Virus record (IMG/VR): IMGVR_UViG_3300021511_000001
Span: 1 to 40,549 of that record
Strand: one strand, 5' to 3'
Origin: a virus
Length of the DNA stretch: 40,549 nucleotides
The notes under the pieces were generated by a model. That model was given only the letters and a program-made list of their open reading frames with translations, was not told the DNA's origin and did no database searches. A program made the translations under genes and the position numbers. Shown piece by piece: positions 7,290 through 39,945 of the stretch. Each line of letters starts with the position of its first letter. Within the stretch, counting starts at the first letter, position 1.

Positions 7290-7329
7290 GAATGAAAAAA
7301 TAAAGTAGAAAACCGCTAACGAAACTTTT

Positions 7330-7431
7330 AGCCACTCGGCTACTGAACAAAAAGCCGACCGGCTTCCTTCTTCCCTGTGTGGATGGGTGGTGGATGGGAG
7401 GATAGGGGACGGGAGGGCTGGTCGGTTTTTT
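7330..7431 (+). terminator. Hairpin plus terminator with a G-rich loop, between head genes and scaffold
   Basis: A small hairpin TAGCC/GGCTA (about 7330-7343) is followed by a terminator-like stem: CCGACCGGC (7355-7363) pairs with GCTGGTCGG (7417-7425) over 9 bp with one G-U pair, then six T. The 53-base loop holds five G tracts of three or more (7385-7387, 7396-7398, 7405-7408, 7411-7413, 7415-7417), enough for a G-quadruplex on the RNA strand. The gap 7290-7470 contains no other gene that I can support. Confidence 0.6.
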
Positions 7432-29071: not shown

Positions 29072-30091
29072 TCATCCTCCTAAAGCCTCCCGGACTCCGG
29101 CAATATCTTCCAAGACATAAATCTTCAAGGTAGTGCTGATAGTCGAATGTCCCAGAGCGTGTTGGATCGCTTTTGGATTCGCTCCCTTTCTGATAAGCTC
29201 TGATGCTCGCAAGTGTCTTAGATGATGAATACCATCGATTCGTTCCAGCTTCAAATCCTTTTTTAACCGCCGGAACTTAGTCGTTACACTGTGTTGTTTC
29301 CAGGGAAAGAGTTTCTCTCTTTCATGTGGCAATTCCTTCAATATCCGCCATAACTTTTGCGTGATCGGAATAGTCCGGGGTTTTTTGCTTTTGGTTTGCA
29401 TTAAGGTTATAGTTCTTCTTCTAAAATCAATATCACTCCATTTTAGATTCAAGGCTTCAGTCCTTCTCATAAGGGTATAATAGATGACTTTCAGATATAT
29501 GAGAAAAAGTTTATCGGGTATAGAGAGAAGTTTTCTTAGATCACTACTTTTGAATCTTGCTGGACGGGTAAAAGGGATTCTTGTCATAAGAGGAAAATCT
29601 CTTAAGGGGTTTTCTTTTAAATAGCCTTGCCTTTTTGCATGTTCAAGAGATGCCCTGATTATGGTGATGTAAGTATTGATGGTAGTGTTTTTTATCTTGT
29701 TTAGACATGTCTGAATGAAGGAGCTTAAAAGCGGTTTGTCTATATCTGCAATCTGTGTGACGTGCTGAAGTTTGAGGAATTTCAGCCACCTTTTGAAGCG
29801 ATATTTGTCTCCGCGGATGGTGTTATAAGTTTTATTCCGGTCACAAAATCTGAAGTATTCTGAATAGAACTGGTCGACTGAAACGGAATTTGACTGTTCA
29901 ATTCCCAACTCTTGTTTGATCTCTTTCATTCGCAAATTTGCCAAGAGAAGCTCGGCAGTCTGTCTATCTGTAACTGGGAAAGAAAGATTTAAGAATTTAT
30001 GTAAGGATTGAGCTTTCCTCTTGCCATTCTCCACGATCCCGCCTAAATACCAGTTGGGGGAATCTTTGCGCTTGTAGATGAAAAGAGACAT
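29072..30091 (-). CDS. int: Tyrosine integrase
   Basis: The product has 339 residues and is a site-specific recombinase for integration and excision. It has an N-terminal arm-binding part (about 1-60), a SAM-like core-binding region (about 80-170) and a catalytic domain. The catalytic residues seen are R in YYTLMRRTEAL, K in KSKKPRTIPIT, the HHLRHLR motif (R about 292), H about 315 in LGHSTISTT and Y about 325 in KIYV. It is on the minus strand in the same operon as the repressor and its gene ends beside attP. Confidence 0.93.
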   Translation of the reverse strand: MSLFIYKRKDSPNWYLGGIVENGKRKAQSLHKFLNLSFPVTDRQTAELLLANLRMKEIKQELGIEQSNSVSVDQFYSEYFRFCDRNKTYNTIRGDKYRFKRWLKFLKLQHVTQIADIDKPLLSSFIQTCLNKIKNTTINTYITIIRASLEHAKRQGYLKENPLRDFPLMTRIPFTRPARFKSSDLRKLLSIPDKLFLIYLKVIYYTLMRRTEALNLKWSDIDFRRRTITLMQTKSKKPRTIPITQKLWRILKELPHEREKLFPWKQHSVTTKFRRLKKDLKLERIDGIHHLRHLRASELIRKGANPKAIQHALGHSTISTTLKIYVLEDIAGVREALGG

Positions 30092-30428: not shown

Positions 30429-31085
30429 TCACTCAAACTTTTTCCACGCCCAGACTACTTTACCCAAGATCAAACCATCTTTCTGGGGAGTAATCAGGGG
30501 TGCATTTTCTTCTTCCCATTTTTTATTCCAAGCCCTGAAGTAAAATTTTTGATCCACGATCAAAAGCTGTTTGATGGAGACCTGAAAGTCTCCGGTATGA
30601 CAGGCGACCAATTTCTTTTTAAGTTTCCTGGGATCGCGCTCACCAACATCGACCGCTACGATATCTCCATCGCCCAAAATCGGGATCATGGAATCACCCT
30701 TGACGAAGATAGCTCTATAGGTATGTCCTTTCTTCAAAATTCTTTTGTGAATTAGACAGGGTTCCTCCATCACTTCGGCTTCGTCAATTGAAAGACCGGA
30801 TCCTAAAGAAGCGGAATCGGCAAGTAAGGGAACAGAGGCAAAATGATCATCCGCCTTAATTTCGATGATGGGACGGGGTTTTTCTTCATAACCTAAAAGT
30901 TCTCCAACATCAACTTTCAATCCTTCCGCTAACTTTTCTAAAGTTCTTAACTGTGGAGTTTGTCGACCATTTATGATTCGGGAAATTTGTGAAACATAGA
31001 TACCAGTCTTTCTCCAAAGATCATAACTCGACAACTTTTTGATCTCCATTAATCTTTTTAGATTTGAACCTATCTCTTTAAGCAT
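30429..31085 (-). CDS. CI-like repressor, HTH plus S24 peptidase domain
   Basis: The product has 218 residues and is the probable lysogeny repressor. Residues about 5-60 form an XRE-type helix-turn-helix. The C-terminal domain is LexA/CI-like, with catalytic Ser132 in KGDSM and Lys172 in VSIKQLL. The usual Ala-Gly cleavage site is not seen; the region reads ADSASLGSGLSIDE, with Leu-Gly at 94-95. No ribosome binding site precedes ATG 31085, and the predicted promoter would give a leaderless message, as in lambda cI. Confidence 0.9.
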   Translation of the reverse strand: MLKEIGSNLKRLMEIKKLSSYDLWRKTGIYVSQISRIINGRQTPQLRTLEKLAEGLKVDVGELLGYEEKPRPIIEIKADDHFASVPLLADSASLGSGLSIDEAEVMEEPCLIHKRILKKGHTYRAIFVKGDSMIPILGDGDIVAVDVGERDPRKLKKKLVACHTGDFQVSIKQLLIVDQKFYFRAWNKKWEEENAPLITPQKDGLILGKVVWAWKKFE

Positions 31086-32571: not shown

Positions 32572-32644
32572 AAAAACAAACGCTCTGGACACAACCCCTT
32601 CCTTTCTTCTGATTTGTTGGGCACAAGAAAGGATAAAGACTGGT

Positions 32645-32726
32645 GGTGGCGTGCTTTTAAAACAAAAACATAGGAAGTTGAACAAGTCGACTGATTCAAT
32701 GTCCATTCACGCCACCTCACGCCACC
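32645..32726. repeat. Tandem and inverted CACGCCACC repeats
   Basis: TCACGCCACC occurs twice in tandem (32707-32716 and 32717-32726). Its inverse, GGTGGCGTG, occurs at 32645-32653. The set lies in the 175-base gap between two small genes. The repeats could form a stem-loop or bind a protein; otherwise the gap contains no gene that I can support. Confidence 0.4.
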
Positions 32727-32746
32727 GCCGGTCTTGAAAGGAAAAA

Positions 32747-35403: not shown

Positions 35404-35463
35404 ATGTTTGCACGGGATTTAAGTTCTGAAAAGGAGAAGTTTAATGGCAACCACAATTCTTGA
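35404..35463 (+). CDS. Possible 19-residue leader peptide
   Basis: ATG 35404 follows GAGAGGTAAA and opens MFARDLSSEKEKFNGNHNS before a stop that lies inside the start of the next gene. It could be a translational leader that couples to 35444, but it may equally be chance. Confidence 0.2.
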   Translation: MFARDLSSEKEKFNGNHNS

Positions 35464-35674
35464 AACATTGTGTAATGCAGAATACAACTTAGCACACGGC
35501 TATCCTTTTCAAGCCTCACTTTGCAGAGAACAACTACACAATGCTATAGTCCTTTTGAAAAAAGGGTATTCAATCTATGATGAAGTGGAAACGCTTATAG
35601 AGAAATATGGTTATGGTGAGGTTGAAGATATTCCTGAACTAAAAGAGAGTTTGCCTAAAGAAAAGGAAAAGTAA
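35444..35674 (+). CDS. Hypothetical helical protein
   Basis: The product has 76 residues, helical (ILETLCNAEYNLAHGYPFQA...LHNAIVLLKKGYSIYDEVE) with an acidic end. AAAAGGAG precedes the ATG. It lies immediately upstream of the structured RNA at 35681. The family is not recognised. Confidence 0.6.
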   Translation: MATTILETLCNAEYNLAHGYPFQASLCREQLHNAIVLLKKGYSIYDEVETLIEKYGYGEVEDIPELKESLPKEKEK

Positions 35675-35680
35675 ACCTAA

Positions 35681-35780
35681 CGGGTCGCCTCGGTCTGGCG
35701 GTAACAGACCTGCGCTGGTGGGCCGGGTGCATAATGCCAGGTTTTGGTTCCGTGCCGGTGAAAATCCGGTGGGCGACCCG
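35681..35780 (+). ncRNA. Unclassified structured RNA, riboswitch-like aptamer
   Basis: A GC-rich block in AT-rich surroundings. P1: CGGGTCGCC (35681-35689) pairs perfectly with GGCGACCCG (35772-35780). Inside, P2 GGTCTG (35692-35697)/CAGACC (35705-35710) around GCGGTAA; P3 CTGG (35715-35718)/CCAG (35737-35740) with further G-U pairs; P4 GCCGG (35754-35758)/CCGGT (35766-35770) around the loop TGAAAAT, which has T-loop character. GCCGG at 35722-35726 could compete for the same CCGGT. The arrangement recalls a riboswitch or tRNA-like domain, but no known class is recognised. Confidence 0.6.
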
Positions 35781-35789
35781 ATAAAAAAA

Positions 35790-35840
35790 CCTCTTGTCCT
35801 TGTCAAAGGAAACAGATGTCAGACCTTGAGGAGCTTTTTT
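35790..35840 (+). promoter_or_regulatory. Expression-platform hairpin before the gene at 35843
   Basis: CCTC (35790-35793) can pair with GAGG (35828-35831), with inner GTC (35796-35798)/GAC (35822-35824), followed by AGC and six T. The GAGGAG that it would cover is the likely ribosome binding site of the ATG at 35843. The element could act as a weak terminator or hide the ribosome binding site, as in riboswitch expression platforms. Confidence 0.4.
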
Positions 35841-35842
35841 AA

Positions 35843-36136
35843 ATGGAGAATGACTATCCCACCGAAGCAGAATTGCGAAGAATTAGAGAGTGGCGTGTCG
35901 ACAAAAAATCAATGTTTGATTTTCTTGGCTATATTAAAAGCTTGTGGTGGTGTGCTGAAAGAGGCTTTGTGTGTAAGGGTAAGAAAGTTTTAAAGCTTGA
36001 ACTACACACTGGTGGTTGGTCGGGCAATGAGGATATAATCCATGCCTTAAAAGAAAATAAAAGTCACTTTTGGTTTTTCTATTGGCAGAAAAGTGTGCGA
36101 GGCGGGCACTATTATTTTCGGATTCCGTTATTTTAG
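35843..36136 (+). CDS. Conserved phage protein with LHTGGWSGNEDII motif
   Basis: The product has 97 residues. The sequence YPTEAELRRIREWR, then ELHTGGWSGNEDIIHAL and FWFFYWQKSVRGGHYYFRI corresponds to a widespread small phage family that I recognise by its TGGWSGNE and GGHY.F motifs, without a known function. It directly follows the structured RNA at 35681-35840, which may control it. Confidence 0.7.
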   Translation: MENDYPTEAELRRIREWRVDKKSMFDFLGYIKSLWWCAERGFVCKGKKVLKLELHTGGWSGNEDIIHALKENKSHFWFFYWQKSVRGGHYYFRIPLF

Positions 36137-37706: not shown

Positions 37707-37712
37707 GAGATC

Positions 37713-37830
37713 GTCGCAAGAAAGTCAGCATTTTTATGGCTGGCAATATATCGCCACCGGCTTCACTTGAAGATAAGTCGTAGCTGACTTTCTTGTGACC
37801 AGGTGAATGCTGGTGGCTTTTTTATTTTTG
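37713..37830 (+). promoter_or_regulatory. Leader RNA with 17-bp stem and terminator before the replication initiator
   Basis: GTCGCAAGAAAGTCAGC (37713-37729) pairs with GCTGACTTTCTTGTGAC (37783-37799), 17 bp with one G-U. GCCACCGGC (37753-37761) in its loop can pair with GCTGGTGGC (37809-37817), just before a T-rich tract (TTTTTTTATTTTT). That pairing would form a terminator or a pseudoknot, in competition with a local ACCAG/CTGGT hairpin (37798-37814). The arrangement suggests conditional termination or antitermination. Confidence 0.6.
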
Positions 37831-37845
37831 AGGGGGAATGATGCA

Positions 37846-38691
37846 GTGAAGCGATACACCAGAATTAAGCATGAGGTTTTTGAGAACATATTCGCAAGGG
37901 GGCTTTTGAATGTAAGAGAGTTACAGGTCATCTCAGTAATAATTCGAGAAAGTTGGGGGTGGGATAAAGGAAAAAGCAACTGGACAAAAAGACCCCTATC
38001 TAATAAGTATTTTGTCAAAAAAACAGGTATTTCTAAATCACACATTTGTGAATTACTGCAACAAATGATCTTAGAAAAGAAAATCCTAAAAAAGGATGGA
38101 TACTATTCTTTTAATGAGCATTTTGACCAATGGGAAAAGTTCCCAAAAAGGGAACTTTTAAAGTCCAAAAAAGTTCCCAAAAAGGGAACTCAAAGTTCCC
38201 AAAAAGGGAACTGGAAGTTCCTAAAAGGGGAACTTTTGGTTCCCAAAAAGGGAACTTTTGACGGTTTGGAAATCGACGTAACCACCATATCAATGAAAGA
38301 CTTACGGGCACTCCTAAAACTCCCTAAAGAAAGTATTAAAGAAATATTTAAAGAAATATTTAAAGAAAGCACGGATTCTCTCCGCCTTTTTTATGAAGAA
38401 AAGATCGGGAGAAAACTCAGAACCTTCGGTAGGGATAGAGAAAAGAAACTTAAAGATCGAATGGAAAATTTCTCCTTAAATGAATTAAAAAAGGTAATAG
38501 AGAATATTTCAAAATCAGACTGGCATATGGGACGAGATCCCAAAAGTAATGGAAGGGCTTATAATGATTTTGAGCTTCTCTTTAGATCGGATGCTAAGGT
38601 TGAACAATATTTAAACCTAAAATCTAATGAACCGTTTGCCGGTGAAAAGCAATGGCTTTTAAGAAGGAGGCTTGCAAGTGGAAAGGTCTGA
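37846..38691 (+). CDS. Replication initiator, O-protein-like
   Basis: From GTG 37846 (after GAGGGGG) the product has 281 residues. The N-terminus, YTRIKHEVFENIFARGLLNV, then ELQVISVIIRESWGWDKGKSNW and KTGISKSHICELLQQM, resembles the winged-helix N-terminal domain of phage replication protein O. A repetitive VPKKGT/KFPK segment in the middle encodes the origin iterons (38138-38256), as in lambda O. A three-codon frame, MMQ, overlaps the GTG start. The helicase-loader-like gene follows. Confidence 0.8.
   Translation: MKRYTRIKHEVFENIFARGLLNVRELQVISVIIRESWGWDKGKSNWTKRPLSNKYFVKKTGISKSHICELLQQMILEKKILKKDGYYSFNEHFDQWEKFPKRELLKSKKVPKKGTQSSQKGNWKFLKGELLVPKKGTFDGLEIDVTTISMKDLRALLKLPKESIKEIFKEIFKESTDSLRLFYEEKIGRKLRTFGRDREKKLKDRMENFSLNELKKVIENISKSDWHMGRDPKSNGRAYNDFELLFRSDAKVEQYLNLKSNEPFAGEKQWLLRRRLASGKV
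38138..38256. repeat. Five palindromic iterons: replication origin
   Basis: AGTTCCCAAAAAGGGAACT or a close variant occurs at 38138-38156, 38172-38190, 38194-38212, 38216-38234 (variant CCTAAAAGGGG) and 38238-38256 (starting GG). The last four have an exact 22-bp period, about two helical turns. Each is an inverted repeat with 7-bp arms. Their location inside the O-like gene matches the lambda-type origin layout. Confidence 0.8.
38338..38366. other. AT-rich tandem repeat next to iterons, probable unwinding element
   Basis: AAAGAAATATTT occurs twice in tandem (38338-38349 and 38350-38361) and continues AAAGAAAGC. It encodes KEIFKEIFKES. It lies about 80 bases downstream of the iterons, like the AT-rich region of lambda ori where DNA is opened. 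Confidence 0.5.
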
Positions 38692-39477: not shown

Positions 39478-39945
39478 ATGAAATTACAAAAAGAATGGCA
39501 AGAAAGGTTAAAGCTTTATAGGAGGGCGAATGAATTTCGAGCAAAAGCGTATGAGCTTTGGGCAAAGGGAAGTGAGCTTCGAGCAAAGGGGGACGAGCTT
39601 TATGCAAAGGGAGATGAACTTCGAGCAAGGGAAAGGGAGTTTCGGGTAAGGGGGGGCGGGCTTTATGTAAAGGGGGATGAGCTTTGGGCAAGGGGGGATA
39701 AGCTTCAAGCAAGGGGAAGGGAATTTCGGGCAAGGATGAACGGGCTTTGGGCAAGGGGAGATGGGCTTCATGCAAAGAGGCATAAGCTCCGTGCAAAGGC
39801 GGATGAGCTTTGGGCAAAGGCTGTCTTGAGGGTATATGGGAATATTACAATAAAATGGAAGAACTGGAATAAGCAATATGAGTCTTTTGAGTGTCACCTT
39901 GAAAATGGAGAGGTGTATGGGTTTAAAAAAAGGAGGATTAGGTGA
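39478..39945 (+). CDS. Heptad-repeat protein (ELxAKGD repeats)
   Basis: The product has 155 residues. Residues about 20-120 are some 14 copies of a 7-residue unit close to E-L-x-A-K-G-D, coded by 21-bp DNA repeats; x varies among W, R, Y, Q and H. The C-terminus is non-repetitive (ITIKWKNWNKQYESFECHLE). The repeats predict a long helix, probably a coiled coil or extended rod. I have seen similar phage proteins; their function is unknown. Confidence 0.65.
   Translation: MKLQKEWQERLKLYRRANEFRAKAYELWAKGSELRAKGDELYAKGDELRAREREFRVRGGGLYVKGDELWARGDKLQARGREFRARMNGLWARGDGLHAKRHKLRAKADELWAKAVLRVYGNITIKWKNWNKQYESFECHLENGEVYGFKKRRIR

Follow-up and report, generated by a model that had tools for sequence, protein, structure and literature searches.

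In the yjdF riboswitch a tRNA-like leader precedes an open reading frame, and translation rose 2- to 6.3-fold when such elements were grafted upstream of a Shine-Dalgarno site, according to PMC9142559. Irregular or allo-tRNA-like sequences have been described from soil, some of them polycistronic and translation-incompetent in E. coli (Mukai et al. 2017, via the review PMC7609411). Phage-encoded tRNAs, for their part, counter tRNA-targeting defences, according to PMC10264068 and PMC11555353. Among the open-licence listings and abstract openings searched, no described phage RNA resembles the one reported here, a coverage that leaves its absence from the literature unproven.

The window, by which we mean the whole 40,549-base stretch of DNA that was analysed, is a virus record. 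It encodes a terminase, a major head protein, an O-like replication protein and a C5 DNA methyltransferase, together with minus-strand frames at 29072-30091 and 30429-31085 that we take, by their look, to be an integrase and a phage repressor. A structured RNA lies in the 168-base gap between the plus-strand frames 35444-35674 and 35843-36136; it is codirectional with both flanking genes, and the start codon of the second is on the same strand, 62 nt downstream. The features of the locus are as follows.

35681-35780, plus strand: tRNA-like RNA, the whole cloverleaf-type domain of 100 nt, assigned from the fold, the layout descriptor and a relative
35681-35689, plus strand: 5' strand of the acceptor-like stem, 9 bp with 35772-35780; a wobble pair 35690-35771 is optional
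35692-35710, plus strand: D-like arm, with a 6-bp stem (35692-35697/35705-35710) and the loop GCGGTAA (35698-35704)
35711-35753, plus strand: middle domain of 43 nt, in place of the anticodon and variable arms, with no 7-nt anticodon loop in its best fold
35754-35770, plus strand: T-like arm, with a 5-bp stem (35754-35758/35766-35770) and the T-loop TGAAAAT (35759-35765)
35772-35780, plus strand: 3' strand of the acceptor-like stem, followed by ATAAAAA and no CCA
35828-35833, plus strand: GAGGAG, the ribosome site for the 35843 gene; its predicted pairing partner is coding sequence
35843-36136, plus strand: gene of a 97-aa protein of the TGGWSGNED family, function unassigned, found in many phages without the RNA

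The window RNA folds with a predicted minimum free energy of -49.7 kcal/mol (z = -2.3, with a range of about -2.3 to -2.6 across runs), and shuffled sequences folded equally well in 3/200 cases in one run and in 18 of 1000 in another. The plus strand is better than the minus strand by 11.5 kcal/mol (-49.7 vs -38.2). The first-pass annotation had described a GC-rich RNA with a perfect 9-bp closing stem (P1), two clear inner hairpins, a weaker third element and a T-loop-like TGAAAAT, and each of these recurs in our analysis. P1 is the acceptor-like stem, the hairpins are the stems of the D- and T-like arms, and the third element corresponds to two weak stems in the best fold of the middle domain (35711-35716/35726-35731 and 35736-35739/35745-35748). 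The loop fits the T-loop form U-N-N-R-A, and the RNA region is the highest-GC 100-mer of the window (0.66 vs 0.41). The proposed competition of GCCGG (35722-35726) with P4, here the T-arm, is also borne out by an alternative fold lying 0.9 kcal/mol above the best and predicted at about 15%. What the earlier reader missed is the tRNA-type layout of the RNA. The arms follow one another in cloverleaf order (acceptor, D arm, middle, and a T arm with a 7-nt T-loop beside the acceptor), the link from acceptor to D arm is 2 nt, the T-like arm stands 1 nt from the acceptor strand, and GG is present in the D-like loop. A 9-bp Watson-Crick stem at a span of 80-110, which was set after the RNA had been seen, arose in 0/1000 shuffles; across the whole window, however, 3 GC-rich 9-bp inverted repeats are observed against 1.15 expected, so that the 9-bp stem by itself is no proof. 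The structured RNA is nonetheless real in the sequence.

We rejected the idea that the stretch is coding because the overlapping frames at 35718-35990 (plus) and 35642-35806 (minus) gave no match in a Pfam search, and the first gave none among phages. A thermophilic host was also weighed in view of the GC-rich RNA, and was set aside when a protein composition index, of a kind fitted on whole proteomes, indicated about 36 C. No relatives of the capsid or of the 34316 gene were found in viral contigs. Elsewhere in the window, tandem GTTCCCAAAAAGGGAAC-type inverted repeats at 38135-38260, within the O-like replication gene (37807-38691), are probably origin iterons, and terminator-like strong hairpins with T-runs occur at 7325-7430 (which includes a G-rich stretch), 811-925 and 37711-37825. 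A long inverted repeat (GACTGGTGGTGGCGTG.../...CACGCCACCGCCGGTC) lies between early genes at 32642-32735, and a predicted 155-aa protein (39478-39945) carries degenerate 7-residue repeats of the WAKGDEL/RARGDEL type.

Compared with the systems described above, the window RNA shares with the yjdF leader its place ahead of an open reading frame and a fold of tRNA type bearing D- and T-like loops (PMC9142559), but it has no Rfam yjdF match at E up to 10 and shows neither pairing of the T-loop with the ribosome site nor a tie to the downstream family. Its long acceptor, long middle and cloverleaf recall the allo-tRNA-like and tRNA-Sec-like sequences with their 8-9 bp acceptors (PMC7609411). It differs from them in its 9/5 rather than 8/4 or 9/3 arrangement, in lacking an anticodon loop and a match to the Rfam tRNA model, in its T-loop TGAAAAT, and in residing in a phage, a word absent from PMC7609411. 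As with the phage tRNAs that counter defences, a tRNA-type molecule would be supplied in the contest with the host, but those molecules are described as tRNAs in PMC10264068 and PMC11555353, whereas the window RNA has no recognisable anticodon.

That the RNA falls outside known classes, as the first-pass annotation had held, agrees with our searches. Rfam models run over the window gave nothing at gathering score, and for the RNA region the matches at E up to 10 were all below threshold and to unrelated families. When phages, plasmids and E. coli genomes were searched for nucleotide similarity, nothing but short chance matches came back, and the viral contigs searched gave no exact 22-mer match. 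Two matches were discarded, namely an exact one of 21 bases to a phage record, which falls within a coding frame (presumably UvrC), and a 17-base stretch of L349, which is inside a 556-aa open frame. Patterns built on the loop letters retrieved 6, 48, 5 and 43 stretches from viral contigs and 0 and 83 from genomes. The full scaffold is present in just one of the 169 usable loop-pattern matches, in the viral contig L109, the set of 5 stretches having been left out of this strict test and examined less strictly; none of the 83 genome stretches has it. With flanks and middles shuffled, 0.0005 full scaffolds are expected (14 in 27,965 rounds). We also built a model of the window RNA (R1) and a model from the window RNA and its L109 relative (R2). 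The best matches of R1 in 39, 395, 297 and 167 prokaryote genomes are at chance level, no R2 match in 398 + 398 prokaryote genomes reaches E 0.01, and nothing else was found with R2 in 49 further virus records. The sole R2 match in 94 loci (L104, 24.5 bits) had been drawn by the loop pattern and is coding by eye, and it was dropped.

The tRNA-type layout can be stated in a descriptor that uses arm lengths, the general T-loop form and the closeness of the arms, and no loop letters. As devised, after the RNA had been seen, it requires an outer stem of at least 8 pairs with at least 6 G-C, and two hairpins of at least 5 pairs each. It matches the window once and only 3 sites elsewhere in about 2.5 Mb searched on both strands (5.0 million strand-bases), and all three are tRNA genes called by ARAGORN. 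Specificity depends on these settings. Without the T-loop rule there are 33 non-tRNA sites; lowering the G-C pairs to 5 and the T stem to 4 bp admits 5 non-tRNA sites, including both elements of L109 described below; with all stems shortened there are 18 non-tRNA and 20 tRNA sites; and with an outer stem of 9 there are one of each.

Two elements of the L109 contig are central to the comparison.

L109 3921-3825, minus strand: L109A, relative of the window RNA, found through the loop letters
L109 3740-3658, about 80 bases downstream of L109A and in tandem with it: L109B, a tRNA-like element

L109A has an 8-bp acceptor (AGGATCGG/CCGATCCT), a D-like loop CGGTAA, a 43-nt middle with a 12-nt loop in the best fold, and the T-loop TGAAAAT; its D- and T-loops are nearly identical to those of the window RNA. 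In the R1-guided alignment 48/103 positions are identical, with 22 of 40 stem columns and 12 of 43 middle columns conserved. All 38 cells of its scaffold are paired and both sides have changed in 7/20 pairs, against 0-1 both-side changes in slid-partner controls, and these figures come from an alignment that leans towards structure, since it was the loop letters of the window that led to L109A and the structure-carrying R1 that aligned it. The L109A cloverleaf (-41.8) is about as stable as the best alternative, non-cloverleaf fold (-42.0). L109B, which the loop pattern did not select, has the acceptor and T stem of L109A, a D arm that is different yet paired, and the canonical T-loop TTCGATT. 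Its best fold is a cloverleaf (z = -4.0), and its best Rfam match is tRNA-Sec at 22.9 bits, under the cut-off of 47. We also noticed a third tRNA-like stretch in this contig (2836-2904, minus strand) with a sub-threshold tRNA-Sec score of 17.2 bits and a best fold that is not a cloverleaf. ARAGORN calls none of the three L109 elements. Comparison of 21 window proteins with 28 kb of the L109 contig gave no matches; the context of L109A is unrelated to that of the window, and nothing shared was seen beyond the RNA type. On this comparison L109A appears to be a convincing relative, and it is the sole one found outside the window.

At the level of sequence, these comparisons establish a predicted cloverleaf-type layout, together with a relative whose stems appear compensated and which has a tRNA-like neighbour in tandem. 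The explanation that we favour, tentatively, is that the window element is a phage-encoded tRNA-like RNA, a look-alike acting in trans. It is probably non-decoding and akin to the irregular tRNA-Sec- or allo-tRNA-like sequences. We read the RNA as tRNA-like because the only outside sites of the descriptor are tRNA genes, because the stems of L109A are compensated at a scaffold frequency that shuffling almost never produces, and because L109B adjoins L109A, with tRNA-Sec the best weak match for L109B and for the third stretch. The position of the RNA also counts in favour, since it is codirectional, occupies the top-GC spot of the window and is not tied to the family of the gene that follows. 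On the other side weigh the lack of an Rfam tRNA match, the single relative, the unconserved middle, the off-consensus T-loop and the equally stable non-cloverleaf fold of L109A.

Chief among the rival readings is that the RNA works in cis, as a yjdF-style tRNA-like leader on the 35843 mRNA in which a ligand or the fold itself alters translation. We think this unlikely, if still worth serious attention. The short distance to a same-strand start codon and the two near-equal folds are consistent with it, and the yjdF leader and the grafted translation-raising elements (PMC9142559) are precedents. The relatives of the 35843 gene argue the other way. The family, in which the TGGWSGNED motif is invariant, occurs in 75 viral loci, and R1 finds nothing significant among them (best match 12.3 bits, E 4.3). 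The upstream gap is at least 100 nt in only 3 of the 73 viral relatives with a placeable start, one of these three gaps being ended by the contig end; cover was counted as any frame of at least 45 codons, which may over-cover, so that the gaps are lower bounds, and a chance frame masks the window's own gap here. No conserved association of aptamer and gene is therefore seen among the loci of the 35843 gene. Moreover, a different gene follows L109A, and the yjdF model, as noted, finds no match.

The expression platform described in the first-pass annotation fares no better. The hairpin downstream of the RNA has a pair probability of about 0.5 and is thus weak, the search for a terminator-like site found none, and folding models predict the same pairing of the ribosome site with the coding sequence with and without the RNA. 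Given the gap, R1, folding and terminator results, we see no conserved link between aptamer and gene and no functioning platform, and we rejected a riboswitch of the 35843 gene as the main reading because relatives lack the RNA and the ribosome-site pairing is the same without it. Like the layout, the independence of the RNA from the 35843 gene family is seen in the sequences themselves. The 97-aa family itself has no match in Pfam, PHROGs, PADLOC or NCBIfam. An AlphaFold model of the protein (mean pLDDT 94.5) yields two uncharacterised viral matches and no solved structural relative at E <=0.001, and gives no clue to the RNA.

A second rival, which we regard as distinctly unlikely, sees in the element a tRNA gene (class II, tRNA-Sec- or allo-tRNA-like) that has diverged or is decaying and that reads a codon now or did so formerly. 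Arm order and arm lengths agree with a long-acceptor (9/5) class II tRNA, tRNA-Sec is the best weak match of the neighbouring L109 elements, and irregular allo-tRNA-like sequences are known from soil, some in polycistronic form (PMC7609411). Against this, the predicted best folds of the window RNA, L109A and L109B have no anticodon arm with a 7-nt loop and U33, no CCA is encoded 3' of the acceptor strand, and the stems are fully paired and compensated rather than decayed. ARAGORN reports no tRNA in the RNA at default settings or at -ps90 (at -ps70 it counted four weak genes in a 300-base test piece), and the Rfam tRNA, tRNA-Sec and other tRNA-like models do not match the RNA at E up to 10. The 12-bp acceptor branch of allo-tRNAs (8/4 or 9/3) is likewise not found, the window RNA having 9/5 and both L109A and L109B 8/5. 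In tRNAs, the T-loop consensus differs from the UGAAAAU of the window RNA, in which the canonical G19-C56 pair cannot form. The anticodon loop, a covariance match and an acceptor branch of the required size were all looked for and not found, and for this reason we file the RNA under neither tRNA nor allo-tRNA.

It is improbable, in our judgement, that a GC-rich patch merely folds by chance here, or that the stretch is a DNA inverted repeat, with no function as RNA. The z score, at only about -2.3 to -2.6, and the expectation of roughly one GC-rich 9-bp inverted repeat per such window are compatible with it, but the specificity of the descriptor, the compensated stems of L109A and the strand asymmetry of the fold argue against it.

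The cobalamin likeness noticed in the first-pass annotation holds for the T-loop hairpin alone, and this hairpin is also FMN-like. The hairpin CCGGTGAAAATCCGG is shared with both riboswitch families, and FMN riboswitches have in addition the GGCGGTAA block in the same order, but the window RNA is without the other conserved blocks. The loop scan of genomes retrieved FMN riboswitches, with an FMN signature by pattern in 10 of the 83 genome loci and Rfam confirmation in both of the two tested. Against 25 FMN, 29 cobalamin and 28 TPP riboswitches and 200 shuffles, mean Smith-Waterman scores were 21.4 vs 15.6 for FMN and 18.8 vs 15.9 for cobalamin, above 200/200 shuffles for both families, whereas TPP was not above shuffles; some FMN rows had been taken from loop-pattern matches, which biases this test. 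The cobalamin RF00174 profile scores 2.4 bits, a value that one shuffle equals. Derivation from an FMN or cobalamin riboswitch is close to refuted, since the profile match covers the T-loop hairpin alone (3.0 bits vs 2.9 for the best shuffle), the strongly conserved 5' and 3' consensus blocks of FMN riboswitches are missing, and neither covariance model (RF00050 for FMN, RF00174 for cobalamin) matches at E up to 10. In our reading, the resemblance probably reflects a common T-loop module and not descent.

Returning to a tRNA look-alike acting in trans, we envisage that the D- and T-like loops would dock in the fashion of the tRNA elbow, and that host tRNA-processing enzymes may excise the RNA from an early transcript, or that it may stay within it. 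Having no recognisable anticodon loop and no encoded CCA, the RNA could be recognised as a tRNA without decoding. Its likeliest use would be in trans, where it might, for instance, serve as decoy or effector towards tRNA-acting host factors, tRNA-targeting defences among them.

More speculatively, and with a good deal of doubt, the window RNA and L109A may be the first members of a family of phage tRNA look-alikes in which the anticodon part has been swapped for another domain, free RNAs that would occupy or redirect host tRNA-handling factors, with phages as a possible source of the irregular tRNA-like clusters of soil. The second member came from combining a layout search with loop letters; neither Rfam nor plain similarity searching yielded anything. 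If the proposal is true, the host factors affected would be those of tRNA processing, modification, quality control or tRNA-targeting defence, and anticodon-less tRNA-like RNAs would mean that phages use the tRNA shape beyond decoding. Irregular tRNA-like sequences overlooked by tRNA finders would also gain a function open to testing, and the proposal would bear on how phages handle host defences acting on tRNA.
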